Assembly (NCBI GenBank): GCA_021811615.1
Contig: JAJZNW010000061.1
Coordinates: 1 to 64,000, forward strand
Source of the DNA: Bacteroidota bacterium
GTDB lineage: Bacteria > Bacteroidota > Ignavibacteria > Kryptoniales > JAKASW01
DNA: 64,000 nt
Direction: 5' to 3'
The position numbers and the translations under genes were made by a program. Shown here piece after piece: positions 11,711 through 54,423 of the stretch (the stretch's first letter is position 1; every line of letters starts with the position of its first letter). The notes under the pieces are model-generated. The model searched no databases. It saw only the letters and a program-made list of their open reading frames with translations, and had not been told where the DNA came from.

Positions 11711-13234
11711 TTACTTTAGCAGCATCATTTTTCTGGTGCTGGTAAATCTTCCCGCCTCCAGCCGATAGAAATAAACACCGCTGGCAAACCTGTCGGCATT
11801 GAAGTTTACTTCATAGGTGCCGGCTCTCTGCATTCCGCTGTAGAGGGTAGCCACCTTTTCGCCGAGGACGTTGTAAACGGTCAGTGAAACCTGAGCGGCT
11901 CTCGGGACCGAATATCGAATCATCGTTGTGGGGTTGAAAGGATTCGGATAATTCTGATCGAGCGTAAACGACTGCGGTATCTGCTTCGGAAGACTTTGCA
12001 CCGCAGTGAGAACCGTAGTGGTATCGAGATAATTCCCGAAGATGTTAGTCGTCAGCCTGATCGGCGCGGTGCCTGCAGAATCGGGGATAAGCATCTGATG
12101 GTTATCGAAGTTATCCGTCGTATTCTCCTCGTTCTGCTCGACTCCCGTTGAAGGGTAGCCCGGGTGGTAGAACGCGCTGTACATGAACCACACTTTGTTG
12201 ACGGAGCCCTTCGGGAAGGTGAACGTGCCGGAGTAAATCGAATCGCCGGCTTTGAGGTCACCGTGAGTGCCGTCGTCGTAGAGCAAAAGCGATTGCATGG
12301 AATCAGCCCACGGCTGGGCGTACAACCACGACAGGGGCGGCTCGCTTCCGCCGATGACAACGCTGTCGATCGACGGGAACGGCTTTCCAGTGATCGCGTC
12401 GATGGCGTGTTTCATGTTCACCGAGAAGATCACGGTCACCGGCGTCTTCAAAACTCCAGTGATGCCGTCGAAGAACCTCGTCGGTAAAGTGCTGTCTCTC
12501 CCGGTAAAGACGAGGGGGTAGTTCGCTCCGTGAGGGCCTTCTTCCCATCCGCCGTTAGGAGGAAGAGGTGCTACGGTCCTCGTGGTTTGGATGAAGTACT
12601 TATAACCGGAGGTATCATTCGGCGTGGCTATCGCGTTCACGTTTGCCGAATAATAGCCGGGTTCCAGCTGGTTCTCCGTCATCTCGGTTCCGGGTCCCCA
12701 ACCACCGGGGATGATGTCCCCGCGCAGGAAGACCTTGTCGCCGCTGTCAGGCTGGAAGTATCCAGTCTGTTCCATGAACGACATGTTTACGGTGAATGTT
12801 AGATTGGCCTGCACGTCGACGACGGTGTCCATGTTGAAATAGGTAACAGGGAGCGTCTGCGCACCGGATACCAGCTTGAACCAGCGGTTGCCTCCGATAT
12901 TCGGGCTCGGTACTGTGCTCTCCCAGTTATCCAGTCCGGCATGAGTCTCAACGAATTTGTACTGCAGGGTGTCATTGACCAGAGAATCTGGCATGTCGAT
13001 AGTAACCGTGTAGATCGTGTCGCTGGCGTTCTTAGTCATCAAACCGGTGTACCCGCCCCACCCGTTGAATGAACCGCGAACTTCGACACTATCGGTGCTG
13101 ATATTGAAGAGACCGCTCAGAGCCTGGTATTTCATGTTCAGCTGGAACGTAACCGAGTTCTGGGCGTACGCCAATGGGACACTCATCAGCATGGCGACAA
13201 GCGCGATGCAGAAAGCCTTAGCCTTGTGTCTCAT
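11711..13234 (-). CDS. Secreted multi-module starch-binding-like protein with T9SS sorting domain (cassette A)
   Basis: The 507-aa protein has a signal peptide (about 1-24, ending AYAQ) and three beta-sandwich modules: one with [13 protein letters not shown] (about 26-130), one with [15 protein letters not shown] (about 145-250) and one with [14 protein letters not shown] and [13 protein letters not shown] (about 268-385). These resemble CBM20/CBM48-type starch-binding or SusE/SusF-like surface modules. A T9SS type A domain ([13 protein letters not shown], ending KMMLLK) closes it. No catalytic domain is present, so a surface glycan-binding role is inferred. A strong AAAAGGAGG ribosome site precedes the ATG. 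It is the last gene of cassette A and a paralogue of 45152-46699. Which glucan it binds is not shown by sequence. Confidence 0.8.
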
Positions 13235-13354
13235 GTTTACCTCCTTTTGGTTGTTAGTTGTACTTGTGAGAATGCTCCGTGGTATGGATCCCGAAATACA
13301 CGCGGGGGGGATTCCTTCAAAATCAAGAGCTTCGTCGGACTAAAGAATTTCAAA

Positions 13355-14368
13355 TCACACTCCTATTGTCAGCGAAAATTCCTGAAGGTTTTTCAGCAGC
13401 CCGAAATCCTCGTAGCCATAATCGAGCCTGAGTCTCAGGTTCATTGAGACTTCGTATCTTATGCCTACGCCCAAAGTAAGCCCCTCCTGGCTGTTCGGAA
13501 GGAAGAGAGACTTATAGCCGGCCCGAAGATACAGGAATTTGTTCCACGAATACTCGGCACCGACATTCATACTCTGGAGCTCGTTGCTCGGGTGGACGGC
13601 ATCCACTGCGAGAGTCAGCCGGTTCGTTCGTGAATGCACGACATCCATTGCCAGGCCGACACGGAAGAAGAGAGGAAGAGGGTATGAATTTGTGTAGTAC
13701 TCGGCCGGTATGTTCTTGTTATTACCCGCCATCGAGGGGGAAGGATCGTACGAGACCAGAAGGTCTGTACCGCCCATCGACATCTCCGTACCGAAATTTG
13801 CGATGTCCATCCCGATCTTCATATTGTTGAACGGCGTTATATACAGGACACCGGCATCGACGGCCCAGCCGGTTGCCGACTCGTGCCAGATGTTTTGCAT
13901 TATCATCTTCCCTGTCCCGCCGATAGAGAACCTGTCGGTGAGATTCCTGGCGTAGGTGAGTCCCACGGCCCAGTCGCTCGCGCTCCAGGTCTCCCCTGTC
14001 CCGTTGGGTTGCGAGACTGTCGTAACCAGGTCGCTCCCGTAATCGAGCTCCGTAACGGCAAGTCCGATCGCGTCGTCCTGGTCGATGGCGACGACTCCCG
14101 CAAAATAGTTGTAGCTTGTGCCGACGAGATAGTCAGTGTGTTCGAGGAGAAAAGCTGTCCGGCCGGTTCTTGCAATACCCGACGGATTCCAGTAAAGGGC
14201 AGATGGGTCGTTTGCGACAGCGGTAAAAGCTCCGCCCATACCTACGGCTCGCGGGCCTGCGGCGATCCCGAGGAACGGGGCCGCCGTCGTGCCGACTTTA
14301 TTCTGAGAAAATGCCTGTGCCGCGCTTAGCATAATCACCACGGCTGCAGCTAACGTCTTTAATTTCAT
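13355..14368 (-). CDS. PorV/PorQ-family outer-membrane beta-barrel protein (cassette A)
   Basis: The 337-aa protein (from ATG 14368) has a signal peptide ending AFSQ and the family signature NKVGTTAAPFLGI followed by AVANDPSALYWNPSG, typical of PorV/PorQ (UPF0164-like) barrels. PorV in known T9SS binds cargo C-terminal domains after export and hands them to the attachment machinery. The ATG at 14368 has GAGG six bases upstream and gives a clean signal peptide; another ATG at 14380 directly abuts the stop of the upstream gene but has no ribosome site. Here the gene sits inside a glycan cassette rather than beside T9SS core genes, suggesting a substrate- or partner-specific paralogue (inference). 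Its counterpart is 46870-47877. Confidence 0.85.
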   Translation of the reverse strand: MKLKTLAAAVVIMLSAAQAFSQNKVGTTAAPFLGIAAGPRAVGMGGAFTAVANDPSALYWNPSGIARTGRTAFLLEHTDYLVGTSYNYFAGVVAIDQDDAIGLAVTELDYGSDLVTTVSQPNGTGETWSASDWAVGLTYARNLTDRFSIGGTGKMIMQNIWHESATGWAVDAGVLYITPFNNMKIGMDIANFGTEMSMGGTDLLVSYDPSPSMAGNNKNIPAEYYTNSYPLPLFFRVGLAMDVVHSRTNRLTLAVDAVHPSNELQSMNVGAEYSWNKFLYLRAGYKSLFLPNSQEGLTLGVGIRYEVSMNLRLRLDYGYEDFGLLKNLQEFSLTIGV

Positions 14369-14380
14369 TTGCGGCCTCAT

Positions 14381-17300
14381 CTACTTTATGATCGCTATTT
14401 TGCCGTACTTCTGACCAACTCCCGGCGCATCTACCAGGTAGAAGTAAACGCCGTAAGCCACCGACAGGTTATCCGTCGTCCTGAGATCCCAATTCACCGC
14501 ACCGTTAGCTATATCCTGACCGGGAGGCATAGTAAGCTTCCTGATCAGCTGACCTGCGGCGTCGAAGATGTAGATGGTACTGTTGGCGGGCAGATGTATA
14601 AACGTAATTTTTCTCGTCCCGCGGCCGCTGTTAATTCCCGGAGGCAGAGGAAGCTCCTGCGTCGTAGCAGCGACGTACGGGTTAGGCACCACCCTGATCA
14701 TACCGAGCTGGTTTTCCGCGAGCGACTTGTTCAACGAATCCGAGTGAGCCTTGAATGAGAACACATCCCCTTTCCTGAACGGCTTATCCGTCAGCAAGTT
14801 GAATGTGGCGGCGTTGCTGCTCGGCAGCTGAATCGTGGTATCGCCTTTGAAGCTGACATACCAGCCGAAGTTCGGCTTTCCGTTCGTGAAGCTCGGGATG
14901 ATTATTATGACGAGGTTCTTCGTCGGAGGCGAGAGAAGGTTATTGACCACCTGCGCATAGGCGAACTTGGCATAGCCACCCGTCGTGAGATTCTTTATTC
15001 TGAAGTTTACGGGCTGGGCCGTCAACCCATCTGCAGGGACCGCCGTAGAGGTATCGACGCCGACATTTTGACTGAAGACCAGCTGGTAATCCGAAGGGTC
15101 GTACGTGCTCGGAAGGAGTCCTCCGAGAGTGAAGACGCCTGCTTCATAAGGATAGGCCTTCGCAAGAGCCGGCGTGTTCCATCCGAACAGGGAATCGGAA
15201 GTTGCAAGCTGAGTGCTGTCATTATTGAAAGTCACCCGCATCCCGTCAAACAACGGAGGCTGCTCATCCAGCTGATCTACCGACGCATTAGCGATAAGAG
15301 TATCGCCTGAGGTCACGTCGGTCACCGTGTAGGACTGTGTGTCGTGAAGGTAGGTAGCGGTCTTCGACTGGTTTTGCGGCGTGTAAGAAACGGAGGTATC
15401 GCTGAAAGTAATATTGAAAACATGACCGTCGACGGTTCTCAAAGCCTGTGGATTCACGATTTGCAAATCCACCGAGCCTGTTCCGTAAGTCGGTGTTTCA
15501 TGATATATAGAGCCGCCGTTGGCAGGCATATAGCCGGCCATCGGTGCCTGCGGGGTAACGTAAGCGACATTGACATCGCAATGTGGTACGCCTTGGGCGT
15601 CGAGCGTCACGAACTTCGAACATTCTGCCGGATAGATGTTCTCGGAAGCATTTCCCATCGTGTAGGAAGTAACCGCGTAATAATAACCCTGGCCATTCTG
15701 CAGTCCGCTGTCGACGAAGGTGTGTACCAGCCCGATGTCATTGCCGAGATAATATCTCGGAAGATCCGCAAGTGTCTGCGTCTGCGGGAGGAAGTAACCA
15801 CGTATGCCGTCCTTGAGGTCGTACGTCGCAATAGCCTGTCCGCCTCCTTCGGTGAAGCCAGGATCGGTGGAGCGGTAAATCTTGTACCCTTCGAATGTAT
15901 GCTGCTGAGATGTATCCTGGATCGAGGTATCCCTGAAATGTTCAGCGGTGCTGTCCCAAAGGAGAGTGACCTTATGATCGCCGGGTATCGCTATGAGATT
16001 CGGTTTTGGAGGGGCTTTTGTGAAATTGTAATTGTTGTTGTAAATATCCTGGACTATCTGTTTGTTCTGGAAGAGGGTCGAGCTGTCTGCGCCGAACACC
16101 AACGCCATTGAAAATCTTTCCGTATGGAGCGGCGGCATCGGGAAATAGCCCGAAGCAAAGGCGAAGTTTCCTGCTTCCGGCACGTCAGGGATCACGTCGA
16201 AGTAACCGGGCGTCATCACATTCCACATTACCTCACTGTTGCTCATGTTCGGCGAGCCTGAAACCGTGAAGTAGCTGAAGCTTGTAAGACCCAGCTGATC
16301 GGATTCTTCGACGTCCGTTTGATCGAAATGGGGCTCGCCGATATTGTCCGTAGGAATCCCGTCGCCCTCATAGTCGTCATGTTGTTTATCCCAGTTTCCG
16401 TTCTCGTCACCAGACCAGTGGGCCGCCTCAATCCCGGGATGCTTGCCGGTAATGGGATCGATGGGAGCGTTGTAATTGGGTACCCACGAGGTTACTTCAT
16501 GGCCGGGGCCGCTGTCCCTTGCCTTGTCTATCATGGTATTGTCGAGTCCTGTTCCCGTCAGGTAGTCCTTGTACGCGAGCGGTCTTATATCCTGCCTGAT
16601 CACATTACCGTTCTGGTCTTTGAAAACCCTTTCGTAGTCCAACTGATAATTCTCGTCGATCAAGCCGTTCAACAGATCGTCATGGCCGTCATTGGGAACC
16701 TGGGTAAGCGTCACGCCATCGTAGATCTTATACGCCTTACCCATCGAATAGACCGTCACCGTATCCGTGGAGCTCTTGAGAAGAGTATCCAGGAGAACGA
16801 TCGACCTGACGTATCTGACCACCTGGAATGGAGCCGTACCTGCCTCTGTGATGGTTTCCGTGGTCGGGGTGATGAGAGCGATCTTGTTGTTGGGCCAATT
16901 CGGATTCGTTCCCGGATCGTTCATGGAAAGAGTTCGTGAAGCGACATAGGTATTGCTGCCGGAATTGAACTGGAAATCGCTTGACGAGAAGACCGGAGCG
17001 CTCGGGTCTTCATTGCTGTTGTTATTGTCAATCCCGTCGTATGGGTTTCCAGGGCTTTCCAGGTAGGCGTAACCAACAAACCCCACGGTGCTCCGAACAC
17101 CAGGTAGCACCTGACTTAACGGGATGAATCCTCTCGCAGTATTATTATCGTTCGCCAGCCAGCTGTAAGCTATGTTGTTGTTCAAATCGAAATACCCGAG
17201 GAGATCCTGGCAGGGAGTGTAGTCGCCGTTGTTGGCGTAGGCACCGCTGCAGGTTCCGATGATTACGCCGAACACGCTCTTGTTGTAGGTAGTCGTACTG

Positions 17301-18052
17301 GTGTTTGTAATATCGTACAGCCAAAAAACGACATCCTGCGCCTGGATCTGGGACCATTGCATCCCGCGAACGGCGACGACTATCCCGATTCCTTTCCTTG
17401 ACGAGTCAGTTGAGTCGGGAATGAACATATCTCTGGTCCGCTGCTGGACGCTGCTGTCCGCAGCATCGTCCATGACGAAATAGCTCTCTTCATCCGCGTT
17501 GAACACACCCTTACCGAAATATCCGTCCCATAAAGCCTTGCCGGTGGCAGGGTCCCTCCAGGACGGGTGGTCGGGCCAGAATGGGGGCCAGCTATTCGGG
17601 TCCTGACTCATTGCGACGGTATCCTGGTTGAGGTTCACGTAGCCGGGTTCGGGTTCAAAGCCTTCGAAAGCTCCGGATGTAGGATCCACTTTCGCGTCCT
17701 GACCGTTCCTCGGTCCTTTCGCGATAGTGACCGAATGTATTGTATCCGGTTTGCCTGTACCGAAGTAATCCCTGACCGGGAGCTGTACTCCGACGAGCGG
17801 CGTGATGTCTCCGACGTAGCTGTCCTTGGTAGCGGGATAGGGCCAGTAGCCGCGGAGGTCGTTCGCGTTCAACCCTGCGATGGAGCCGTCATTGCGAAAA
17901 GAGAGTCCAACCCGGTTGCCGTTCTGAATTCCGAAGCGCGTATAGAGCGCGTTTCCCCAATTCGATCTTGCCCACTGGATCAGTTCCGGGGACTGCGCGA
18001 ACGCCGTCCCGGTGAAGCACAAAACCGCAAGGGCAACAAAAAGTCTTTTCAT
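14381..18052 (-). CDS. Giant secreted protein (about 1223 aa) with FN3 domain and variant sorting domain, partner of TonB receptor (cassette A)
   Basis: Function is not recognised. A signal peptide (MKRLFVALAVLCFTGTAFAQ) is followed by a long region rich in Asp/Asn loops (DGIDNNNSNEDPS, DDLLNGLIDENY, WSGDENGNWD) that look like calcium-binding loops, a fibronectin type III-like domain (about 690-810, GDHKVTLLWDSTAE and FEGYKIYRSTDPGF), beta-rich segments, and a C-terminal FlgD-like sorting domain with the variant motif VPNPYVAATT, ending KYGKIAIIK. ATG 18052 has AGAGG seven bases upstream; a TTG at 18058 is a poorer start. It lies 11-17 bases after the receptor gene and directly before the PorV gene. 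A paralogue of similar length occupies the same place in cassette B. A SusD-like surface role is my inference from position. Confidence 0.75.
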   Translation of the reverse strand: MKRLFVALAVLCFTGTAFAQSPELIQWARSNWGNALYTRFGIQNGNRVGLSFRNDGSIAGLNANDLRGYWPYPATKDSYVGDITPLVGVQLPVRDYFGTGKPDTIHSVTIAKGPRNGQDAKVDPTSGAFEGFEPEPGYVNLNQDTVAMSQDPNSWPPFWPDHPSWRDPATGKALWDGYFGKGVFNADEESYFVMDDAADSSVQQRTRDMFIPDSTDSSRKGIGIVVAVRGMQWSQIQAQDVVFWLYDITNTSTTTYNKSVFGVIIGTCSGAYANNGDYTPCQDLLGYFDLNNNIAYSWLANDNNTARGFIPLSQVLPGVRSTVGFVGYAYLESPGNPYDGIDNNNSNEDPSAPVFSSSDFQFNSGSNTYVASRTLSMNDPGTNPNWPNNKIALITPTTETITEAGTAPFQVVRYVRSIVLLDTLLKSSTDTVTVYSMGKAYKIYDGVTLTQVPNDGHDDLLNGLIDENYQLDYERVFKDQNGNVIRQDIRPLAYKDYLTGTGLDNTMIDKARDSGPGHEVTSWVPNYNAPIDPITGKHPGIEAAHWSGDENGNWDKQHDDYEGDGIPTDNIGEPHFDQTDVEESDQLGLTSFSYFTVSGSPNMSNSEVMWNVMTPGYFDVIPDVPEAGNFAFASGYFPMPPLHTERFSMALVFGADSSTLFQNKQIVQDIYNNNYNFTKAPPKPNLIAIPGDHKVTLLWDSTAEHFRDTSIQDTSQQHTFEGYKIYRSTDPGFTEGGGQAIATYDLKDGIRGYFLPQTQTLADLPRYYLGNDIGLVHTFVDSGLQNGQGYYYAVTSYTMGNASENIYPAECSKFVTLDAQGVPHCDVNVAYVTPQAPMAGYMPANGGSIYHETPTYGTGSVDLQIVNPQALRTVDGHVFNITFSDTSVSYTPQNQSKTATYLHDTQSYTVTDVTSGDTLIANASVDQLDEQPPLFDGMRVTFNNDSTQLATSDSLFGWNTPALAKAYPYEAGVFTLGGLLPSTYDPSDYQLVFSQNVGVDTSTAVPADGLTAQPVNFRIKNLTTGGYAKFAYAQVVNNLLSPPTKNLVIIIIPSFTNGKPNFGWYVSFKGDTTIQLPSSNAATFNLLTDKPFRKGDVFSFKAHSDSLNKSLAENQLGMIRVVPNPYVAATTQELPLPPGINSGRGTRKITFIHLPANSTIYIFDAAGQLIRKLTMPPGQDIANGAVNWDLRTTDNLSVAYGVYFYLVDAPGVGQKYGKIAIIK

Positions 18053-18069
18053 AATCAAACCTCTGGGCT

Positions 18070-20892
18070 TTAGAAAGAAATAGTCGTACCGATTTGAATC
18101 CTCCTCGGCGACGAATAGAAAGTCGGATTCGTGTAATAATCCTGGATTGTGGCAATCCTCTGCGGAGGATTCGATGCCAGCAGAGACTCTTCATACAGCG
18201 ACACGTTCGGCAAGCCGGTGTCGGTGTATACCTGCAAAGCGTTCATCGTATCGAAGATGTTGTCTACTCTCGCGAAGAGAGTCAGGCTGGTTCCCCCGGT
18301 GAAGTTGAAAGTCTTGTAGAGCCGCATGTCGACGTTGTACGTAGCAGGCTTGTAGGCGGAATTGTACGCCAGCTCACCGATATCGGATACCGCCATCGGC
18401 GTATACGGGGTGCCGCTTCCGAAACTGAAAATGAAGCTTGCGCCCCAGCCTTGTGGATTGAGATAATCCAACGTCGCGTTGACAGTATGCGTTTGATCCC
18501 AATCCAGAGGAATCAGGTACGTCTGGGGTTGTACTCCGCTTGCTCTCAGGTTCGCGGCCGCATTCGGATCGGACGCATCGCCCTTGGCGATCTGGAAGGT
18601 GTAATTGAGGGTGCCGGACCATGAATCGGAAAGCCGCTTGTCGATTGTAACGACGATGCCTTTCACGAAGCCGAAGTCCGTATTCACATACCTGCTGTAC
18701 TCGGCCGAGTTGCCGGTTACGAAAATTATTTCGTTCAGCGTGCCCGACAGGTTGCGTATATCGTTGAAGTAACCTGTAACATCTATCGCCAGGTCGTTGG
18801 TAAGCTGCTGCTCGACGCCGAGTTCTCCCTTTGTCGTCTCTTCCGGATTCATGTTCGGATTGCCGACCACGCCGAGGAAAGTGCTCCCGCCCAGCTGCAG
18901 CTTGTAGCCGGGGCTCTGGTACAGTTCGTCGAAGGACGGCATTTGAAAGAACAAGCCGTAAGAGAAGTGGATGATTCCACGATCGGTGATCGGGAAGGAA
19001 ACTCCGAGCCGCGGGCTGAACTGGTATTTGTTTGAGGCAGTCTTGTACCAGAAAGCCATTCTTCTCTGTACCGCAACCTGGTGCTGATTGGCCGCCGTGA
19101 CACCGTTTCCGAGCGGCGCTACGACACTATCCTGGTACTGCGGCTCCAGCGGATAATACACATTCGGGTCCGCGGGATTCGCGAGGACCTGACCGTCCGG
19201 ATGGAACCAGTCGAACCTCACGCCGAAATTCACGATCAGGGAGTGGTATTCCATTTTGTCCTGGACATATGCCGAAAACTGCTGCGGCCTGTGTAAGTAC
19301 TGCAGGTTGAACGGGCTGTCCTGACTCGGAATAACGAGCGGGCCGAGCAGGAAAGGCGAGGTACCGTCAGTGGCCGGGTCCCTTCCGATATCGGCGCTGG
19401 ATAACGCGTGGCTCAGATCAAGGTTGTGCAGGTAGAGTTCGTATTGGTTGAATTGAAAACCCGCCTTTATCATGTGGTGGTCGGTTACCTGGCTGGTTAT
19501 GTCGAACTTCGCGACAAACGTGCCGGAGTTCCTGATGTTGTGTGCCATGTTGATACCGCCGGTATAGAATGTTGCCTCCGGAGCCTGGTTGAGGATCGGG
19601 AGGACGTAATTCTGATTGAAGGGGTCGTTCCTCTGGAAGAGATTGGACAGCGAAAATGCCGATGGGTCGTAGTATTCCCGGTAATCGTGGAAGAAGTACG
19701 ACAGGCCGAGTTTGTAGTAAGTTCTCGAGCTGAGAGTCTGAGTCAAAGTGAGGGTGTTCATGTACCCTTTTGTGAAATTACTGAGCTCCCCGTTCGGTTC
19801 GTACTTGCGGATGAACTCGTAATCTTTCCCGATTGAATTATCAAGCATATAATCGTAAGAAATGTGCAGTTCCGGCGAGGGCTCGTAAGTGACTTTCCCC
19901 TGCAGATAAGCTTCGAGGTTCGGCGCCATCGGCACAAGCTGGCCGTTCCCCGTCTGCTGGATGGCCCACTTCAAGGGATCCGGATTCGTCGTGTTGGTAA
20001 CGTCGCTGACGTTGAACTTATTGATACCGAAGAGGTCGCCGGCAGTATAATAATAGCGGGCGTCCGCGTAGAAGAAGAGTTTGTCCTTCACAATCGGGCC
20101 GCTCAAGGAAGCTTCGAGCCACTGATCGTTCAAGGGGTTAATCCTCTGGAGTCCGGCGAAAATATTCGATTGAGAGGTCACGAAGTCTCCGGAATAGGCC
20201 GTGAAGTTGCCGCGCAAGTGATTGCCGCCGGTCTTCGTGGCAATGTTGACTATGCCGCTCATCGCCTGTCCGTACTGGGCGTTGAACGCGCCCGTGACCA
20301 GCTGCATCTGTTGAATCGCGTTCTTGTTGACGTTTATTACCGTCCCTCCGTCGTAGGGGTCGGTGACCGGGATCCCATCGATCATGTATGTGACCTCTCC
20401 GCTCCGGCCGCCTCTGAAGTGTCCGGCAACCACGCCGGCCTGAAGGTTCAGGACGTCCTGGAAACTCGTCACCGGAAGCGATTCGATCTGCCTGCTGTTC
20501 ACGATAGCCGTCGTCGCCGTCATGTCCTTCTGGACCATCGGGCGAGTGGCCACCACGATGACGGATTTGGTCGTAACGGCAGACTCCGAGAGCTTGAAAT
20601 GCGCCGTCGTGGTGAGGTCTATCGACACCTGGAGATTTTTTATCTCCTCGGAACGATATCCCACGGCGGACGCCTTCAAAGCGTAAGTACCCGGAGGAAC
20701 GTCCAGTATCACGAACCTGCCGTTCAAATCAGTGGCGGCGCCCATCGAGGATCCCTCGATTATAACCGTAGCGCCGACGAGAGGTTCATTCGTGCTCGCA
20801 TCCACGACTTCACCGGAAAGTTTGCCTGAATCTCCTGCGAAGGCTTTGAACGAGAATAAGAGTATGAAAAAGGCAATGGTGGTTCTTCGCAT
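18070..20892 (-). CDS. SusC-like TonB-dependent receptor (cassette A)
   Basis: The 940-aa outer-membrane receptor has a signal peptide (about 1-19), a carboxypeptidase-D regulatory-like beta-sandwich (about 22-110, GEVVDASTNEPLVGATV), a plug domain (about 125-235, with GGRSGEVTYMIDGIPVTD and GQAMSGIVNIATK) and a 22-strand-type barrel ending in Phe (GTTISF). Such receptors import oligosaccharides or other ligands using TonB energy. The ATG has AGAGG about eight bases upstream and lies three bases after the glycosidase gene, so it is probably in one operon with the symporter and glycosidase. No SusD gene follows; instead the 1223-aa protein and PorV-like genes do. The ligand is inferred as an alpha-glucan oligosaccharide from the neighbours. 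Confidence 0.9.
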   Translation of the reverse strand: MRRTTIAFFILLFSFKAFAGDSGKLSGEVVDASTNEPLVGATVIIEGSSMGAATDLNGRFVILDVPPGTYALKASAVGYRSEEIKNLQVSIDLTTTAHFKLSESAVTTKSVIVVATRPMVQKDMTATTAIVNSRQIESLPVTSFQDVLNLQAGVVAGHFRGGRSGEVTYMIDGIPVTDPYDGGTVINVNKNAIQQMQLVTGAFNAQYGQAMSGIVNIATKTGGNHLRGNFTAYSGDFVTSQSNIFAGLQRINPLNDQWLEASLSGPIVKDKLFFYADARYYYTAGDLFGINKFNVSDVTNTTNPDPLKWAIQQTGNGQLVPMAPNLEAYLQGKVTYEPSPELHISYDYMLDNSIGKDYEFIRKYEPNGELSNFTKGYMNTLTLTQTLSSRTYYKLGLSYFFHDYREYYDPSAFSLSNLFQRNDPFNQNYVLPILNQAPEATFYTGGINMAHNIRNSGTFVAKFDITSQVTDHHMIKAGFQFNQYELYLHNLDLSHALSSADIGRDPATDGTSPFLLGPLVIPSQDSPFNLQYLHRPQQFSAYVQDKMEYHSLIVNFGVRFDWFHPDGQVLANPADPNVYYPLEPQYQDSVVAPLGNGVTAANQHQVAVQRRMAFWYKTASNKYQFSPRLGVSFPITDRGIIHFSYGLFFQMPSFDELYQSPGYKLQLGGSTFLGVVGNPNMNPEETTKGELGVEQQLTNDLAIDVTGYFNDIRNLSGTLNEIIFVTGNSAEYSRYVNTDFGFVKGIVVTIDKRLSDSWSGTLNYTFQIAKGDASDPNAAANLRASGVQPQTYLIPLDWDQTHTVNATLDYLNPQGWGASFIFSFGSGTPYTPMAVSDIGELAYNSAYKPATYNVDMRLYKTFNFTGGTSLTLFARVDNIFDTMNALQVYTDTGLPNVSLYEESLLASNPPQRIATIQDYYTNPTFYSSPRRIQIGTTISF

Positions 20893-20895
20893 GCT

Positions 20896-23619: not shown

Positions 23620-23623
23620 TAGT

Positions 23624-25087: not shown

Positions 25088-25188
25088 TGTTCGAGTGAAG
25101 GTCCTCAAGGATTGTGCCGTCAAGTGAATCCACTGAAACCACGAAATCAAAAAGAATGCGGCCGGTTTCGGGCGAGCGACCAGCCGGT

Positions 25189-25239
25189 GTTGTCAGATTG
25201 ACAACGAAGGGAGGATAAGACTTATCAGTTTTGATAAGT
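25189..25239. promoter_or_regulatory. Two perfect palindromes upstream of the symporter operon
   Basis: GTTGTCA-GAT-TGACAAC (25189-25205) and ACTTATCA-GTTT-TGATAAGT (25220-25239) sit 100-150 bases upstream of the symporter ATG and 72 bases or more below the stop of the response regulator gene. Both are perfect and lie in non-coding DNA. Related hexamers (TTATCA/TGATAA and TTGT..ACAA) recur in the divergent region near 30008 and 30145-30166. They look like operators or enhancer sites, perhaps for the adjacent sigma-54-type regulator. The binding protein is not known. Confidence 0.55.
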
Positions 25240-25310
25240 GAGGATGGAGGTACTAATAAGCGGCAAGTATGGAGGGGTCAAGCCGGCCCGAGTTGCGGGT
25301 TCTCAGTAAG

Positions 25311-26771: not shown

Positions 26772-26781
26772 GAAAGAATGT

Positions 26782-39008: not shown

Positions 39009-39018
39009 ATCCATTCCG

Positions 39019-45008: not shown

Positions 45009-45094
45009 TCAAGACTCCATACTGTGCTGCGGCGACGTTCAGGCTGTGGTTAAAACGATCCATTAAGAAGACCGGGATTCCTTCTCAAACATCA

Positions 45095-45128
45095 CCCCGT
45101 CCCGGCGCACGACGCGGCCGGGACGGGG
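45095..45128 (-). terminator. Perfect 12-bp hairpin after the cassette B starch-binding gene
   Basis: CCCCGTCCCGGC and its reverse complement GCCGGGACGGGG flank a 10-base loop, 23 bases after the stop at 45152 on the minus strand. Only a weak TGATGTTT follows, so full termination is uncertain. Its position matches the hairpin at 11634-11664 after the paralogous gene of cassette A. Confidence 0.55.
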
Positions 45129-45151
45129 CAACCAGAAGGAGGAGCAGATGA

Positions 45152-46699: not shown

Positions 46700-46869
46700 A
46701 ATGTTTCTCCTTTTTTTGATGTGTGGATAATTCCGAGACGCAAGACGTTCTGTGGTACTCCTGTGTCTGAGAAGAATCCGATTAACGAAGTGCGCCCTAT
46801 TCTTAGCCTCCGATTTGAAAATTCTGTATCTGACATCCTGATAAGAAAGTCCTCGTTTTTAATCATGGA

Positions 46870-47877
46870 TCAAAATCCCAGTGTCAAGCCGAATTTCTGG
46901 ATATTCTTCAACAGACCGTAATTCTGATAGGCGTAATCCAACTTCACGCTGAAGAAAGTCGAAATGTCATAGTTCAATCCTAATCCGAGCGTCAATCCCT
47001 CCTGATTGTCAGGTACGAAGAGCGACTTGTACCCGGCCCGGACAAAAATCATGTTGTGCCAGGAGTATTCAGTGCCGAAATTAAGCGACTGCACGTTGTC
47101 GCTCGGGTGAATGGCATCGACTGCCAGAGTGAACCTGTTGTAAGTGGTATTGACGACATCCATAGCCAAACCCACTCTGAAGATCAACGGTAAAGGGTAG
47201 GAGTTTGTATAGTACTCTGCAGGAATCTGCGAGTTTGCCCCTGCGACCGAGGAATTCGGGCTAACGGTGAACAACACGTCCTGCCCCGAGAGCTTCATGT
47301 CGGTCCCGAAATTCGCGATCTCCATTCCTATCTTCATATCGTTGAAAGGCGTGGTATAGAGAAGGCCGGCGTCCATCGCGAAACCGGTAGCGGATTCCCT
47401 CCATATCTGCTGCATGATCATCTTCGCCGTACCGCCGATAGAAAATCTGTCGGTAAGATTCCTCGAGTAGCTGAGTCCTATCTCCCAGTCGTTCGCGTTC
47501 CAGGTTTCGCCGGTACCATCCGGCTGATCGATGGTGGTCACTTCAGAGCTTCCGTAAGCCAGGTTGGTGACACTTACACCGATAGCGTTGTCTTCGTTGA
47601 GCGCGACGACCGCGCCAAGAAAGTTGAAGGAGGTACCGAGCAAATAGTTGGTATGTTCGATGAGGACCTGAGTTCTTCCGCCGCGCGAAATCCCCGAAGG
47701 ATTCCAGTACAATGCAGTGGGATCGTTTGCAACCGCGGTGAAGGCGCCCCCCATCGAAACCGCCTTCGGTCCCACTCCTATCCCGAGAAAAGGTGCAGCA
47801 GTGGTACCGACTTTATTCTGGGCAACAAGCTGGCCCGCGGCCAGGAAAATCACGATTATTAGATATCTACTCTTCAT
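46870..47877 (-). CDS. PorV/PorQ-family outer-membrane beta-barrel protein (cassette B)
   Basis: The 335-aa protein has a signal peptide (ending LVAQ), the same NKVGTTAAPFLGIGVGPK opening as the cassette A protein and AVANDPTALYWNPSG, followed by a beta-rich barrel ending KFGLTLGF. The two paralogues can be aligned along their whole length by eye. PorV-type proteins shuttle T9SS cargo at the outer membrane. It is 12 bases from the giant secreted protein gene, so the two are probably co-translated partners. A substrate-specific PorV role is inference. Confidence 0.85.
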   Translation of the reverse strand: MKSRYLIIVIFLAAGQLVAQNKVGTTAAPFLGIGVGPKAVSMGGAFTAVANDPTALYWNPSGISRGGRTQVLIEHTNYLLGTSFNFLGAVVALNEDNAIGVSVTNLAYGSSEVTTIDQPDGTGETWNANDWEIGLSYSRNLTDRFSIGGTAKMIMQQIWRESATGFAMDAGLLYTTPFNDMKIGMEIANFGTDMKLSGQDVLFTVSPNSSVAGANSQIPAEYYTNSYPLPLIFRVGLAMDVVNTTYNRFTLAVDAIHPSDNVQSLNFGTEYSWHNMIFVRAGYKSLFVPDNQEGLTLGLGLNYDISTFFSVKLDYAYQNYGLLKNIQKFGLTLGF

Positions 47878-47889
47878 GCGTCGCCTCGC

Positions 47890-50800
47890 TCACTTAATTA
47901 TGGCCAGTTTGCCGTACTTCTGGCCGACTCCCGGTGCGTCGACCAGGAAGAAATAGACTCCGTATGCGACTTCCAGATTGTTGCTTGTCCGTAAGTCCCA
48001 GTCGATGGAACCGTTGTCAATGCTCTGGCCTGCCGGCATCTCCAGTTTTCGCACCATCTCGCCCCTGACCGTAAAGATGTAGATGACGGAATTTTTCGGA
48101 AGATGGATGAAGGAAATTTTTCGCTCGCCTCTTCCGCTCGTTATCGTAGGCGGCAGGGGCGGCTCCTGGGAAGTTGCAGCCACGTATGGATTGGGCACGG
48201 CCTTAATATTGGCCATCGAGACGGCCGCGAGCTTGGCGTCAACTTTCGCGGCCTTCGTTTCTATCTCGAACTGGTCCGCATGCACAAACGGCTTCTTGGT
48301 GAGAAGCTTGAGGGTATCGCCGGCACCCGGCAAGTGGTTCGTACTGTCAGTTCCGTTCATGGCAAGCAGCCAGGTGAAATAGACCGAGTCCTGTCCCGCC
48401 GACCCCTTCCCGTGCTCGAACAGGAAGACCCTGTCCAGCGGTGCAAGAACTCCGCAATCTTTTCCATAGATTGTGCAGTTCGGTTCCTGGAAGCCGTATG
48501 GAATCTGCTCGCCCGTATGCGGGTCGTAGATCCTGAAATTTGTTTGGCGGCTCGGAAGAGTAGCCTTCCCGATCACGGCACCGCTGCGAGGATTTATCTG
48601 CGTGAGGGAAATCGTTGTGGAACTGTCACCCGGCGTGGATGCCTGATCAAAAACGAAAACATAATCGCGCGGATAAGCGACACCGGTCTCCTGGATTCCA
48701 GAAATCACGAGCGGTGTGAAGCTGAACGGAAGATTCGGCAATGCCGGATTCGTATTCCAGCCTGAGGAAGAAGAGTTGAAGCTAACGCTCCAATCGTTCT
48801 GAACGTTCACATACATCCCTTCAAATACGAATTTATCCCTGTCTCCCTGGACGGTGGATGAGCTCAACGGTATCTTGGCAGCGCCTCCGCTAGCAGAGAA
48901 CTTCAAGGTATCAGGAGCGTTGGAATCGGTGTAGTCGATCACGTAGTACCCGTCGGTCATGTTGACCACGCCGTTTAGCGAATCCGAGAAGCCGACTCTG
49001 AACTTCTTGTCAGGCACGAGTTTCGGATCGACCACGGTTAGATAAACTTGCCCGGTCCCGGAGACATTTCCCACCGGAGCCATAAGATTCGGGGCGTCCG
49101 GTCCTACGTACCCTGCTGTGGGAGCCTGAGGAATTACTGTAACCGTATTGACGTCGGTTCGCACCTGACCGTTCGAAGATATGTTTATGTATTTCGGATC
49201 CTCAGCAGGATAGGTATTCGCCTGAACATCGCCCGTCGTGTATGCACAGACGGCGTAGTAGTATCTCTGTCCGTTCTGCAGTCCGGTATCGGAGAAAGTA
49301 TGAACGAGTCCGCCGTCGTCTCCGAGGTAAAATATCGGGAGTTGCGAGAGTTCCTGGGACGGAGGGAGGAAATTCCCGCGGACGCCGTCATCAAGGTCGA
49401 ATGTCGCAAGCTCAGCTCCGCCCGCTTCGGTAAACCCCGGATCGGTTGACCTGTAGATCTTATAGCCTTCAAAAGACGGCGCCGCCTCTGCCACATTATC
49501 CCAGACCAGGGTTACCTTCTTGTCACCGGCAACAGCTTTAACGTGCGGTTTCGGCGGAGGCATGACGAAGTCGTAGTTCTTGTCGTATATACGCTGCACG
49601 ATCTGCTTGTTCCTGAAAATCTGACTCGAGTCTGCGCCGTAAACGAGGGCCAGAGAAAACCGCTCCGTGTGATTTGGAAGCAGTGGAAAATAACCCGAGG
49701 AGTAAATGAAGTCTCCGTCCTGCGGTAGTGCGGGTATGACGTCGAAATATCCGGGGACCATCCTGCTCCAGAGTATCTCGCTGTTGTTCATCGCGGGCGA
49801 TGAAGTCTGGTTGAAGAAGTTGAAACTCGTCAGGCCTATCTGATCCGATTCGTTGACGTCGGTCTTGTCGAAGTGAGGCTCTCCGCTTGTCGGCATCCCG
49901 TCTCCTTCACCCACATCGTTGGTATTTGCGACGCCGTCGGCGCCGATGTCGTCGCGCTTGGGATCCCAGTTGCCGTTTTCGTCGCCGGACCAGTGTGATT
50001 TAACCACTCCCGGATATTTGCCGGTGACGGGATCTCTATCCTGTGTATAGTCAGGGACCCATCCGGATACCATCCCACCCGGTCCGCTGTCCCGGCTTTC
50101 ATCTATCATTGAGTTGTTTGTTCCGCCGCTGGTGAAGTAGTTCTTGTAATAAAGCGGACGCTGATCGGTTTTGTAAACCTGCCCCTGAGTTGTCATGAAC
50201 ACGCGCTGATAGTGGATGCTGTAGTTCTCGTCTATCAGTCCGTTGAGGTTATCGTCGAGACCGTTGTTGGCAGTCTCGGTGAGCGTGTCGCCGTCGTATA
50301 TCTTGTAAGCGACTCCGAGTGACTGGACTGTCGCCGTGTCGGCGTTGCTCTTCAGAAGCGTATCGAGTCTTACAACCGTTCTCGCGTATGTGGCGGGATT
50401 GATAGTTATGATCTCGTTTGTCGGCCAGCTCGAGCTGGACCCAGAGTTGGTTCTCGAGAGAACCCTGGACATGACGTATGAGTTGTCCGCTGAATTGAAG
50501 GCGAAATCCTGCTGGCCAAATTTCGGGCTGTTAGGATCCACCGCGTCGTTGTCATTGTCGATACCGTCGTACGGGTTGCCCGGACTTTCGAGGTATGCGT
50601 ATCCGACGAAGCCGATATTTCTCCTGACGCCGGTCAACACGCGGCTGAGCGGGATCCAGAGAGGATCGCTGGTCCGGTCATCCGAGTCCCAGTTGTAAGT
50701 GAGGTTGTTGTTAACGTCGAAAAAGCCGAGATCATCCTGGCAATCGACGTAGGTCTGGCCGACGTCGCCGACGCATCCCCCGACGACCTCTCCGAAAACG

Positions 50801-51594
50801 GTCTTCTTATAAACGGTGGTGCTTATGTTTGTAATATCGTAGAGCCAGAACAGTACATCCTGGGCCTGAACCTGCGACCACTGCAGTCCCCTCACCCTCA
50901 CGACGATTCCGATTCCATTTCTCGTCGTGTCGGTCGAATCCGGATGAAAAGTATAGTTGGTCCGCTGCTGAACGCTGTTGTCCGGCGCATCATCCATGAC
51001 CCAATACGATTCCTGGTCGGCGCTGAATACACCTTTGCCGAAATACCCGTTCCACTCGGCCTGACCGCTGGCGTTTACCCAGTCCGGATGATCCGGCCAG
51101 GACGTCGGCCACGAGGACGGAATATTGCTGAGCGCCACCGTGTCCTGTCTCGGATTGACATAGCCGGGTTCAGGCTCGAATCCCTGGAAATGCCCGTCGG
51201 CAGGATCTGTCTTGGCGCTTTGGCCGGTTCTCGGGCCCGGCGAGATGGTGACCGAATGCACAGTCCCGTAGATTGGCTTGCCGTTGCTGCCCACACCGAC
51301 CGGATAGGTACCGGGAAGCTCGACTCCGACAAGCGGAGTCACGTCGCCGATGTAGCTGTCCTGCGTCTTCGGGAAAGGCCACGCACCGCGTATATCGTTC
51401 GGGTCAGTGCCGGATATCTGGCCGTTGTTCCTGAACGTGATGGCGACGCGGTTGCCGTCATGTATGCCGAAGCGTACATACAACGCGTTTCCTCTGTGCG
51501 TCTTGGCGTACGGAATCAGATTGTCCTGGTCCTGCTGTCCAAACGCGGCGCCGAAAGAGGCTAACAGGAGTATCGAAATGATGACCTTGCGCAT
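47890..51594 (-). CDS. Giant secreted protein (1234 aa) with FN3 domain and variant sorting domain, partner of TonB receptor (cassette B)
   Basis: Paralogue of 14381-18052 with the same layout: signal peptide (ending AAFGQ), N-terminal ALYVRFGIHDGNRVAITFRN (AxYxRFGI/ITFRNNG in both copies), Asp/Asn-rich loops (GIDNDNDAVDPNSP, DDNLNGLIDENY, WSGDENGNWDPKRDD), an FN3-like domain (about 720-830, GDKKVTLVWDNVAEA, FEGYKIYRSTDPGF), and a C-terminal FlgD-like segment with VPNPYVAATS, ending KYGKLAIIK. Function is not known. Conservation of size, motifs and position between the two receptors argues for a real role in receptor function, surface display or substrate capture rather than a chance neighbour. 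Confidence 0.75.
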   Translation of the reverse strand: MRKVIISILLLASFGAAFGQQDQDNLIPYAKTHRGNALYVRFGIHDGNRVAITFRNNGQISGTDPNDIRGAWPFPKTQDSYIGDVTPLVGVELPGTYPVGVGSNGKPIYGTVHSVTISPGPRTGQSAKTDPADGHFQGFEPEPGYVNPRQDTVALSNIPSSWPTSWPDHPDWVNASGQAEWNGYFGKGVFSADQESYWVMDDAPDNSVQQRTNYTFHPDSTDTTRNGIGIVVRVRGLQWSQVQAQDVLFWLYDITNISTTVYKKTVFGEVVGGCVGDVGQTYVDCQDDLGFFDVNNNLTYNWDSDDRTSDPLWIPLSRVLTGVRRNIGFVGYAYLESPGNPYDGIDNDNDAVDPNSPKFGQQDFAFNSADNSYVMSRVLSRTNSGSSSSWPTNEIITINPATYARTVVRLDTLLKSNADTATVQSLGVAYKIYDGDTLTETANNGLDDNLNGLIDENYSIHYQRVFMTTQGQVYKTDQRPLYYKNYFTSGGTNNSMIDESRDSGPGGMVSGWVPDYTQDRDPVTGKYPGVVKSHWSGDENGNWDPKRDDIGADGVANTNDVGEGDGMPTSGEPHFDKTDVNESDQIGLTSFNFFNQTSSPAMNNSEILWSRMVPGYFDVIPALPQDGDFIYSSGYFPLLPNHTERFSLALVYGADSSQIFRNKQIVQRIYDKNYDFVMPPPKPHVKAVAGDKKVTLVWDNVAEAAPSFEGYKIYRSTDPGFTEAGGAELATFDLDDGVRGNFLPPSQELSQLPIFYLGDDGGLVHTFSDTGLQNGQRYYYAVCAYTTGDVQANTYPAEDPKYINISSNGQVRTDVNTVTVIPQAPTAGYVGPDAPNLMAPVGNVSGTGQVYLTVVDPKLVPDKKFRVGFSDSLNGVVNMTDGYYVIDYTDSNAPDTLKFSASGGAAKIPLSSSTVQGDRDKFVFEGMYVNVQNDWSVSFNSSSSGWNTNPALPNLPFSFTPLVISGIQETGVAYPRDYVFVFDQASTPGDSSTTISLTQINPRSGAVIGKATLPSRQTNFRIYDPHTGEQIPYGFQEPNCTIYGKDCGVLAPLDRVFLFEHGKGSAGQDSVYFTWLLAMNGTDSTNHLPGAGDTLKLLTKKPFVHADQFEIETKAAKVDAKLAAVSMANIKAVPNPYVAATSQEPPLPPTITSGRGERKISFIHLPKNSVIYIFTVRGEMVRKLEMPAGQSIDNGSIDWDLRTSNNLEVAYGVYFFLVDAPGVGQKYGKLAIIK

Positions 51595-51609
51595 GAGTCT
51601 GCCTTTGGT

Positions 51610-54423
51610 TTAGAACGTATAAGTAATGCCAAACTGGATCCTGCGAGGGGGAGCATAGTAGTTCGCCCTTGTGTAGTAATCCTGCACGGTCGCGACACGC
51701 TGCGACGGGTTGCTCTCGAGAAGATGCTGTTCGTAGAGAGACCAGCCAGGCTGGCCGCTGTCGTAGAAGACGTCGACGGCGTTTTTCGTATCGAGGATAT
51801 TGTCGACCCTTGCGAAGAGAGTGAACGTCGAAGTGCCGAGCCGGAAGTCCTTGTAGATGCGGGCGCTCAGGTCGTAGATAGCGGGTTTCACCTGCGAGTT
51901 GTAAAGGAGCTCTCCGACGTTGGAGGTTGAAGTGAGCTGAGGTGTGTAAGGGGTTCCGCTTCCGAATCTGAATATCAGGCTTCCTCCCCAGTCGGCGATA
52001 TTAGCATAGTTCACCGTCGCATTGACAGAATGCCGCTGGTCCCAGTCCAGGGGAATGAGTTGAGTTTCCGGAAGTGTACCGCTTGTTCTGAGATTGTATG
52101 CAGCCTGGGGGTCGGATGCGTCACCCTTCGCTATCTGGAATGTATAATCGAGCGATGCGGATACTCCCCCCGTGAAGCGTTTATTGAACGAGAGGACTAT
52201 TCCGCGGATGTATGCAAAATCGGTATTGACATATTGGCTGTAGACAGCCGACCCGCCATACACATACTGTATCTCGTTCAACGTTCCTGCCAGATTACGA
52301 ATATCGTTGAAGAATGCAGTTATGTCCATCGCTATGTCTTCGGTCAGCTGCTGCTGAAGCCCGAGCTCACCCTTCGTCGTCTCTTCGGGGTTGAGGTCCG
52401 GATTACCGACCACTCCAAGATAGGTGTTACCGCCTGCCACGTTCAGCAGGTAGCCCGGGTTCTCATACAGCCGGTCGAAGGACGGCATCTGGAAGAAGAG
52501 GCCGTAAGAGAAATGGACGATTCCCCTGTCTGTGATCGGGAACGACACTCCGAGTCTTGGACTTAACTGCCATTTGTCGGTTGCATTCTTATACCAGTAT
52601 TTCAATCTCGCCGCTACAGCCTGGGCCGGCGTGCCGCCAGGAGCGACAATGCTGTCCTGGTTTTCCGGCCTGATCGGAAGGTATACGTTAGGGTCCGTCG
52701 GATCCGAGAGCACCTGGCCGTCCGGCCGAAAATAATCGAGGCGCACGCCGAAGTTCACAATCAGAGATTTAAACTCCATCTTGTCCTGGACATACGCGGA
52801 GAAGAGCTGCGGTTTGTGCAGGTACATCAGGTTGTTCTGGTTTGAAAGCGGGGGAATTACCACCGGCCCGAGCAGATAGGGATTCCCGTCGATGACCGGG
52901 TTCCTGTTTATGTCTATCGGCGACATCTGGAGATTGATGTTGTGTAGAAATATCTGATACTGATCGGCTTCTAGACCTGCCTTCAGCATGTGTGTCTGGG
53001 TAACCTGGCTGGTTATGTCGAACTTCGCGACGTATGTGTCTGTACTGTGAATATTGTGTGCCATGTTCGTCCCGCCTGAAAAGAAGGTGGCTTCCGGTTG
53101 GACAAGGAGGGAGGTATGCACATAATTCTGATTGAAGGGGTCCTGTCTGGTGAAAAGATCAGACAAAGCGAACGGGCTTTGGTCCAGGTATTCCCTGTAA
53201 TCTTTGAAATAATAAGACATGCCGAGCGTATAGAACGTCGACGAGCTCAGGGTCTGTGTGAGATTCACGGTGTTCATGTACCCTTTATCGAATCTGCTGA
53301 GCAGCCCATCGGGGTTATATTTGTAATTCCAGTCGAAGTCTTTTCCCCTGCTGTTGTCGAGTATGAAATTGTAGGCAAGCTGGAGTTCGGGGGTAATTTT
53401 GAAAGTCAGTTTCCCCTGGCCATAGATTTCCATATAGGGGTTCATCGGGACCAGTTTCCCATTGCCTGTAGCCTGTATGATCCAATCTGCCGGGCTGGGA
53501 GCTCGGGTGTCGCTGATATCGAAGGTATTGAACTTCCTGACGCCATATTCATAGCCGTCGTCGTAGCGATACCTGGCGTCGACATAGAAGAAGACTTTGT
53601 CACGCACTATCGGTCCGTCGAGGGAGCCTTCGAGCCAGCTGGTGTTGAGCGGATTGGTTCTCTGCAGTCCTGTGAATACGTTCGAGTTGCTCGTGACGTA
53701 TCCGCCGGTGTAAGTAGTGAGCATGCCGTGGAATGCGTCACTGCCGGACTTCGTGGCAATATTGACGATGCCGCTCATAGCCTGGCCGTACTCGGCATTA
53801 TAGGCGCCGGTCACGACCTGCATTTCCTGAATCGAGTTGGTATTGACATCGACGACGGTCTTTCCGTCGTAAGCATCCGTCACAGGGATACCGTCGATCA
53901 TGTACATCACCTCGCCGGATCGGCCTCCTCTCGAATGGAGATCGCCGTTCCTGTCGACGAAGATACCCGCCTGCAGCTGGAGGACATCCTGAAAACTCGT
54001 GACAGGGAGTGCCTGGATCTCTTTGCTGTCGACGACGGCTGTTGAGGCGGTAAGATCTTTTCGGACGAGCGGGCGCTCGGCGGTGATGATGACGGCTTCG
54101 GTGGTCACGGCCGATTCGGAAAGCTGGAAGTCGACCGTGGTGGTCAGGTCTATGGAAACCCGGTTGTCTTTAATTTCGACCGGTCGGTATCCGACGGCGG
54201 AAGCGCGCAGAGTGTAGTTGCCGGGAGAGACATTCAGGATGGTGAAGCGGCCATCCATATCGGTTGCCGAGCCCATGGATGTACCTACAACAAGGACGCT
54301 CGCGCCGATAAGCGGCTCCTTTGTGATCGCGTCCACGACTGTGCCGGCAAGTTTTCCCGTATCTCCGGCGAGGGCATCTAGTGACAACAGGAGTATGAAC
54401 AGCAAACCGGTAAGTCTTCGCAT
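51610..54423 (-). CDS. SusC-like TonB-dependent receptor (cassette B)
   Basis: The 937-aa outer-membrane receptor has a signal peptide (about 1-19), a carboxypeptidase-D-like domain (about 22-110, GTVVDAITKEPLIGASV), a plug (about 125-240, RGGRSGEVMYMIDGIPVTD and GQAMSGIVNIATKSG) and a long barrel ending GITYTF. It is a full-length paralogue of 18070-20892. The ATG is preceded by GAGGTAAAAC. The LacI-type regulator ends four bases upstream, so the regulator and the receptor cassette share a transcript. No SusD homologue is present. An alpha-glucan oligosaccharide ligand is inferred from context. Confidence 0.9.
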   Translation of the reverse strand: MRRLTGLLFILLLSLDALAGDTGKLAGTVVDAITKEPLIGASVLVVGTSMGSATDMDGRFTILNVSPGNYTLRASAVGYRPVEIKDNRVSIDLTTTVDFQLSESAVTTEAVIITAERPLVRKDLTASTAVVDSKEIQALPVTSFQDVLQLQAGIFVDRNGDLHSRGGRSGEVMYMIDGIPVTDAYDGKTVVDVNTNSIQEMQVVTGAYNAEYGQAMSGIVNIATKSGSDAFHGMLTTYTGGYVTSNSNVFTGLQRTNPLNTSWLEGSLDGPIVRDKVFFYVDARYRYDDGYEYGVRKFNTFDISDTRAPSPADWIIQATGNGKLVPMNPYMEIYGQGKLTFKITPELQLAYNFILDNSRGKDFDWNYKYNPDGLLSRFDKGYMNTVNLTQTLSSSTFYTLGMSYYFKDYREYLDQSPFALSDLFTRQDPFNQNYVHTSLLVQPEATFFSGGTNMAHNIHSTDTYVAKFDITSQVTQTHMLKAGLEADQYQIFLHNINLQMSPIDINRNPVIDGNPYLLGPVVIPPLSNQNNLMYLHKPQLFSAYVQDKMEFKSLIVNFGVRLDYFRPDGQVLSDPTDPNVYLPIRPENQDSIVAPGGTPAQAVAARLKYWYKNATDKWQLSPRLGVSFPITDRGIVHFSYGLFFQMPSFDRLYENPGYLLNVAGGNTYLGVVGNPDLNPEETTKGELGLQQQLTEDIAMDITAFFNDIRNLAGTLNEIQYVYGGSAVYSQYVNTDFAYIRGIVLSFNKRFTGGVSASLDYTFQIAKGDASDPQAAYNLRTSGTLPETQLIPLDWDQRHSVNATVNYANIADWGGSLIFRFGSGTPYTPQLTSTSNVGELLYNSQVKPAIYDLSARIYKDFRLGTSTFTLFARVDNILDTKNAVDVFYDSGQPGWSLYEQHLLESNPSQRVATVQDYYTRANYYAPPRRIQFGITYTF

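Follow-up and report, generated by a model that had tools for sequence, protein, structure and literature searches.

The subject of this analysis is a stretch of 64,000 nucleotides (the window) from a bacterium of the Ignavibacteria (Bacteroidota; GenBank assembly GCA_021811615.1, contig JAJZNW010000061.1, positions 1 to 64,000). It carries two runs of genes in the same order, both on the minus strand, at positions 20892-11711 (copy A) and 54423-45152 (copy B). Each run starts with a TonB receptor (T), followed by a secreted protein of about 1230 amino acids (aa; F), a PorV-like barrel (P), and a fourth gene. A first-pass annotation made from the DNA letters alone had described these runs as one four-gene cassette that was duplicated and then specialized, and both runs are present where it had placed them. 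Their genes are the following:

18070-20892, minus strand: copy A T, TonB-dependent receptor of 940 aa, with PF13715 (CarbopepD_reg), PF07715 (plug), and PF00593 (barrel)
14381-18058, minus strand: copy A F, large secreted protein of 1225 aa, with a region like a C-terminal domain (CTD) at about residues 1111-1225 and a variable segment at about 831-1110
13355-14380, minus strand: copy A P, PorV/PorQ-family barrel of 341 aa (NF033709, 218.8 bits; cut-off, 90)
11711-13234, minus strand: copy A optional fourth gene, 507 aa, with a weak CBM53-like stretch and a type A tail of the type IX secretion system (T9SS) (PF18962; TIGR04183, 42 bits; cut-off, 23)
51610-54423, minus strand: copy B T, TonB-dependent receptor of 937 aa, with the Pfam domains CarbopepD_reg, plug, and TonB barrel
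47890-51594, minus strand: copy B F, large secreted protein of 1234 aa, without a family
46870-47877, minus strand: copy B P, PorV/PorQ-family barrel of 335 aa (NF033709, 214.9 bits; cut-off, 90)
45152-46699, minus strand: copy B optional fourth gene, 515 aa, with CBM20 in two stretches (PF00686, 51.7 bits; cut-off, 23.3) and a T9SS type A tail (PF18962)

Pairwise BLASTP between the copies gave 63% identity for T (948 columns), 51% for F (1281 columns), 66% for P (334 columns), and 38% for the fourth gene (537 columns), and the T-F and F-P gaps inside the window measure 3 to 18 bases, which bears out the similarity and tight spacing proposed earlier. The fourth gene has a type A tail in both copies (TIGR04183 score for copy B, 45.2 bits; cut-off, 23). 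Its designation as a starch-binding-module protein suits copy B, where CBM20 lies above the cut-off; copy A has only a CBM53 match of 21 bits, below the cut-off of 27.6.

A profile of the two window F proteins found relatives in 30 of 31 genomes (the source genome and 30 relatives); matches numbered 1 to 18 rows per genome, where one gene may yield several rows. The surroundings of F were viewed in the window and in 40 regions hand-picked, not at random, from strong F-profile matches; 20 further regions were likewise chosen from search matches. Among the 44 F entries of the window and the 40 regions, 39 have T directly before F and P directly after it. L046 and L047 each contain half of a single F gene, and T is found in one of these regions and P in the other; in L050, P is present and the T side is cut; the first F of L064 has neither partner; and L065 lacks T, its P side being cut. 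The window and the same 40 regions also served to build the T and P profiles. Named genomes were scanned with a 24-sequence alignment, and the best 80 of 543 confirmed loci were taken, sorted by their best F gene. Where both sides of F were visible in these 80, all three genes were adjacent in 64 of 66 loci: 55 have the order T-F-P, 6 have T-P-F (L125, L127, L129, L141, L142, and L146), and in 3, T and P flank two or three F-like frames. The two exceptions, L154 and L156, carry T and a different gene in the place of P. Ten other named loci are cut by a contig end with the expected partner visible, and two hold F alone; in L100 and L120, an opposite-strand gene takes the place of T and the other side is cut. 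In L107 and L144, F is split into two or three frames between T and P, perhaps by a frameshift or an assembly fault.

The order is therefore not peculiar to the source genome, since T-F-P adjacency is kept under many group labels. By their record titles, the complete triads fall under nine group labels (Ignavibacteria, Rhodothermales, Neomarinimicrobiota, KSB1, Calditrichota, WOR-3, Stahlbacteria, Cloacimonetes, and Fermentibacteria) in addition to Bacteroidetes and Chlorobi labels; nearly all of these records are metagenome bins, and the labels are as deposited. Over 95 triads, the median gap is 18 bases between T and F and 15 bases between F and P. The conserved part comprises three genes and not four: a relative of the fourth gene directly follows P in only 37 of 88 triads. 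We consequently dropped the four-gene core and regard the fourth gene as optional.

The three proteins also share their history. Across 95 distinct triads (97 less two identical ones; some of the named loci coincide in DNA with regions of the other set), patristic distances correlated at 0.952 for T-F, 0.868 for F-P, and 0.885 for T-P, and none of 999 permutations was as high. The 25 triads of the window's genus, paralogs included, gave 0.983, 0.968, and 0.982, respectively. Within single genomes (4 to 7 triads each, without permutation), the T-F, F-P, and T-P correlations were 0.896, 0.905, and 0.755 for the seven paralogous triads of G017; 0.984, 0.976, and 0.993 for the five of G008; and 0.996, 0.992, and 0.98 for the four of G006. 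Shared species history does not explain these high within-genome values. The phylogenies are thus congruent, even among paralogs of one genome, which supports the view that T-F-P travels as a block.

Looser arrangements were also seen. In L193, L198, and L201, T and P are adjacent, and several genes, one or more of them with a type A tail, separate them from an F-like protein. L206 has neither T nor F; a tandem pair of PorV-family genes there follows a gene with a type A-like tail. Genome G017 has 13 PorV-family genes above the cut-off: 7 in T-F-P triads, 1 after an F gene (its T side lay outside the view), 1 beside a T with an F-like gene about 8 kb away, 1 adjoining a gene for 1350 aa with a type A-like tail (a putative porU), and 3 elsewhere.

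Protein F has few recognizable relatives. Neither window copy matched a Pfam family at an E value of ≤0.001, a SusD family in Pfam or NCBIfam, the type A tail models PF18962 and TIGR04183, or the type B model (CHU_C). By eye, F seems to start with a Sec signal peptide; a lipobox, even by a loose pattern, turned up in only 2 of the 95 F proteins. Given this lipobox count and the lack of a family match, F was rejected as a SusD relative. When profiles were compared with each other, the F tail matched the type A tails (hhalign E value, 2.9e-7; probability, 93%), which makes it a relative, though a distinct one, of these T9SS tails. A CTD-like tail was found in 95 of 95 F proteins, a count that is in part built in: the 114 F tails used to make the tail profile came from the same sets.

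The fold of F was approached with an AlphaFold2 model of copy A residues 26-1225 (pLDDT, 81.2; pTM, 0.70). Its first Foldseek match was PorZ (E value, 3.4e-5; probability, 0.92; TM-score, 0.09-0.14), followed mostly by Ig/FN3-type chains. The earlier "FN3" label of F finds no support in Pfam. Long Ig/FN3-type chains would suit a surface adhesin or polysaccharide scaffold seated on P, with T merely an operon-mate importing a small nutrient such as a vitamin or a metal; adhesins of type B that pair with their own PorP/SprF barrels have been described (passages of PMC12618676). We hold this to be decidedly unlikely, since T tracks F more closely than P does in the trees and since all three genes are so regularly adjacent in the best 80 named loci. 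A separate model of the N-terminal 460 residues (pLDDT, 81.4) had no PDB match at an E value of ≤0.001, and the idea of a known binding fold in this domain was dropped.

The partners of F belong to familiar families. T is a TonB-dependent receptor by its Pfam domains and scores far below the cut-off of the SusC/RagA model (TIGR04056; 74.3 bits for copy A and 95.9 for copy B; cut-off, 368). P reached 83.1 and 75.3 of 250 bits on the PorV model and 107 and 103.8 of 220 bits on the PorQ model, the latter being its best score after the family model NF033709; against PDB sequences, it matched PorV (6h3i_F; E value, 2.3e-8). Judged by these equivalog cut-offs, P is a member of the PorV/PorQ family, yet neither PorV nor PorQ itself. 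The T9SS component SprA is encoded nearly throughout: SprA_N (PF14349) was found in 30 of the 31 genomes, 29 of them above the cut-off. The source genome has two SprA_N genes (G000:C69 and G000:C80), as does the relative G003; each other relative with a match has one.

Pairs of a surface protein and a barrel have precedents. In Porphyromonas gingivalis, surface anchoring of PorU and PorZ by PorV and PorQ was suggested (in passages of PMC5562754), and F-P likewise joins a surface protein bearing a C-terminal domain to a PorV/PorQ-family barrel as a putative anchor. Unlike those pairs, F and P score below the equivalog cut-offs, occur in multiple copies, and come with a TonB receptor. The type B substrates of Flavobacterium johnsoniae are matched with PorP/SprF barrels of their own, whose genes often come immediately after theirs (PMC12618676). 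This resembles F-P, a single surface substrate with its barrel gene directly behind it (see also passages of PMC9143113), but the triad uses a PorV-family barrel and a tail other than type B, and it includes a TonB receptor. By analogy, then, F-P follows the logic of PorU/PorZ anchoring and of type B/PorP pairs with its own tail type and a PorV-family barrel.

The likeness could be closer still if F-P were a specialized relative of PorZ-PorQ that presents a glycolipid, or docks neighboring type A enzymes near T, without binding a nutrient. Among the four PDB matches of the F profile, the best two were the tails of PorU (E value, 0.028) and PorZ (E value, 0.14), both weak; P prefers the PorQ model; and in 46 of 88 triads, the gene behind P encodes a type A tail. 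Against this, the C terminus of copy A F scored 20.6 bits on the PorZ model, far under its cut-off of 260, no same-strand type A gene directly follows P in 42 of the 88 triads, and the constant TonB receptor is left unexplained, so that we consider such a role unlikely. F as a PorZ-like propeller protein was dropped on that PorZ score and not on the model, which aligned to PorZ only with low TM-scores.

We judge it rather probable that T-F-P imports glycans in a TonB-dependent way, with F as a surface partner that the T9SS exports and its own barrel, P, holds. T would provide the gated channel. F would leave the cell through the T9SS, and P would keep hold of its C-terminal domain as PorV does with PorU and PorQ with PorZ. 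Lying over or beside T, F could act as a substrate-binding lid or scaffold, the job that SusD does for SusC. Type A-tailed enzymes and binding proteins encoded nearby would cut and feed the glycan, and ABC importers or sodium symporters would complete the uptake. The neighbors of the two window copies that bear on this are the following:

9400-11673, minus strand: copy A neighbor, GH66 endodextranase-like enzyme with a T9SS type A tail (PF13199, 617.1 bits; 657.5 bits on NF052487, under the cut-off of 730)
6680-9403, minus strand: copy A neighbor, propeller-like protein with a T9SS type A tail (PF17164, PF18962)
20896-23655, minus strand: upstream of copy A, six-hairpin glycosidase-like protein of 919 aa (PF17389, PF22422)
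23624-25150, minus strand: upstream of copy A, sodium:solute symporter (PF00474)
40872-45008, minus strand: copy B neighbor, GH13 amylase of 1378 aa with a T9SS type A tail (PF00128, PF18962)
54427-55485, minus strand: upstream of copy B, LacI-family regulator (PF00356, PF13377)
55692-58457, minus strand: upstream of copy B, GH31 protein with a T9SS type A tail (PF01055, PF18962)

Elsewhere in the class, a seeded sample of 99 of the 136 proteins from chosen loci, with the window orthologs L039-L048 left out, was compared with 108 control proteins from 14 random regions (2 of 16 were dropped because they overlapped or adjoined a triad, and one was shortened). Type A tails were found on 19 of the 99 triad neighbors and on 4 of the 108 control proteins. 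The triad neighbors included 6 sodium:solute symporters, 4 GH3 proteins, 4 glycoamylases, 4 LacI-type binding domains, 3 GH94 proteins, 3 solute-binding proteins, and 3 CBM20 proteins. Families were counted among the 25 commonest of each set, so that single occurrences would escape the control list; that list held none of the sugar and transport families recurrent beside triads, and two alpha-amylase/CBM48 proteins were present in the control. The setting expected of a SusCD importer, glycan-degrading genes alongside, was thus found beside triads and was much weaker for the divergent ones. Their 41 neighbors were mixed: 3 type A tails and 2 glucuronate isomerases, and among the families shown one each of GH88, GH18, GH38, a carbohydrate kinase, and a symporter. 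These neighborhoods support glycan import for the core clade only, and the idea that all triads serve glycans was dropped. In the divergent triads L189-L192, L195, L199, L200, and L202-L204, the F-like proteins have 673-1137 aa and few sugar genes lie nearby.

The mixed setting of the divergent triads would also fit a part of outer-membrane biogenesis, or protein export via T, comparable to BamA-BamG-BamH. In that complex a FadL-type barrel, BamG, anchors the surface lipoprotein BamH beside another barrel (passages of PMC12611786 and PMC12578637), much as P would anchor F beside T. BamH, however, is a lipoprotein in an essential complex, and the passages in question make no mention of a T9SS tail. 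Several copies per genome and lineage-specific enzyme neighbors are ill-suited to one essential machine, and we regard such a function as highly improbable.

The neighbors of the two window copies differ, and so do those of their orthologs. By T, F, and P distances, copy A is nearest to L039, L040, L043, and L044, all with GH66 and propeller homologs nearby, and copy B to L041, L042, L045, and L083, with LacI upstream plus GH31 or GH13 homologs where visible. A starch role had been proposed for both copies; it is not supported for copy A, which with its orthologs is linked to a GH66 endodextranase gene. Going by neighbors, copy A would serve a dextran-type alpha-1,6-glucan and copy B a starch-type alpha-1,4-glucan. 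In the F tree, L048 and L084 group as sisters to copy A, yet they carry LacI and a gene 30-31% identical to the window GH13 gene, and L044 has both LacI and GH66. This distribution suggests a starch-type ancestor that was duplicated before the divergence of these species, with copy A then turning to dextran. The earlier proposal that the unit was duplicated as a block and then specialized is supported. Between the two F proteins, segment 831-1110 is 29-35% identical, compared with 55-71% in the other segments, which makes it a candidate specificity region. It is the lowest among copy A orthologs too (69-71% versus 83-92%, L043).

Like the triad, SusC/SusD is a TonB receptor encoded with a large surface partner beside glycan enzymes; the dextran locus FjDexUL, with SusC, SusD, and SusE/F homologs, GH66, and GH31 (passages of PMC10316084), shares GH66 with copy A. 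The differences are that F lacks a SusD family, nearly never has a lipobox, and combines a T9SS-type tail with a PorV-family barrel of its own, and that T lies under the SusC model cut-off. Both systems occur at different loci of G211, a genome that fits the cultured Melioribacter roseus: one holds a true SusC (731.9 bits on TIGR04056), SusD, and SusE with GH13 and GH31, matching the SusC/SusD/SusE genes with GH13 and GH31 described for Mros0759-0763 of M. roseus (PMC3534657, in part), and a separate one holds a T-F-P triad at about 1,101,556-1,108,860, where GH53 and GH35 genes alongside suggest beta-galactan as the putative substrate. The question is thus testable in an organism of this kind.

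Within the set of 31 genomes, SusD was found in 16, at one or two places each, and in the source genome only below the cut-off. A phylum census of 296 genomes, with at most two F candidates scored per genome, gave F in 161 and SusD in 159 (E value, ≤0.001). In the 73 genomes of the window's class, strong F (E value, ≤1e-100) was found in 43, SusD in 16, and both in 7. In the other 223 genomes, strong F was found in 2 of 62 SusD-rich genomes (12 or more first-look candidates, a threshold of our choosing) and in 49 of 81 SusD-poor ones, and SusD was present in 51 of 65 strong-F genomes. F as a plain SusD replacement was dropped on this last count; the two systems overlap but tend toward abundance in different lineages.

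Several points weigh against reading T-F-P as an importer with a T9SS-exported lid. The order counts rest partly on chosen strong matches in the hand-picked regions. The likeness of the F tail to PorU and PorZ tails is weak, both in the profile search and in the TM-scores. A binding role cannot be read from the fold, the N-terminal 460 residues having no PDB match, and segment 831-1110, weakly conserved among copy A orthologs, may be merely less constrained. The frequent coexistence of SusD and F means that F does not simply replace SusD, and the mixed neighbors of divergent triads mean that glycan import need not be the function of every triad. Contact among T, F, and P, glycan binding, and transport are themselves predicted steps.

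On a wider claim we are evenly divided: that the triad constitutes a second, SusD-independent class of glycan importer, widespread in the Fibrobacteres-Chlorobi-Bacteroidetes group, in which a TonB receptor works with a non-lipoprotein, T9SS-exported lid on its own PorV-family barrel, the three genes together providing for secretion, anchoring, and import as one unit. Such a class may be older than or parallel to SusCD and may account for polysaccharide uptake in SusD-poor lineages, and, if it exists, the T9SS helps to build importers besides exporting enzymes. Polysaccharide utilization loci are usually recognized via the SusC/SusD pair, a criterion that would miss triad loci in Ignavibacteria, Marinimicrobia, KSB1, Calditrichota, and other groups, many of which are represented by metagenome bins alone. 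Among the leading results of the open-access literature (preprints and subscription journals lay outside the scope), we found no account of a T-F-P unit, in agreement with the earlier remark that no described Sus-type system is known to have this make-up.

Other features of the window were also surveyed. The tRNA and Rfam scans gave no matches, a promoter scan of positions 45000-58700 gave 9 sites versus 9.1 expected, and an inverted-repeat scan of positions 10800-21500 gave no lead. Positions 5107-6411, between the propeller protein and a GDSL/TPR protein, encode a 434-aa protein with no family match at an E value of ≤0.001. Beside the glycan locus, positions 58746-60320 encode a multiheme c-type cytochrome near the octaheme tetrathionate reductase family (122.2 bits; cut-off, 375). 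A parvulin/SurA-type prolyl isomerase gene (positions 39019-40875) follows the GH13 gene and has homologs in L042 and L045, and in G211 such a gene immediately precedes T (L225, 14861-16525); this recurring isomerase of triad loci is possibly a folding helper.

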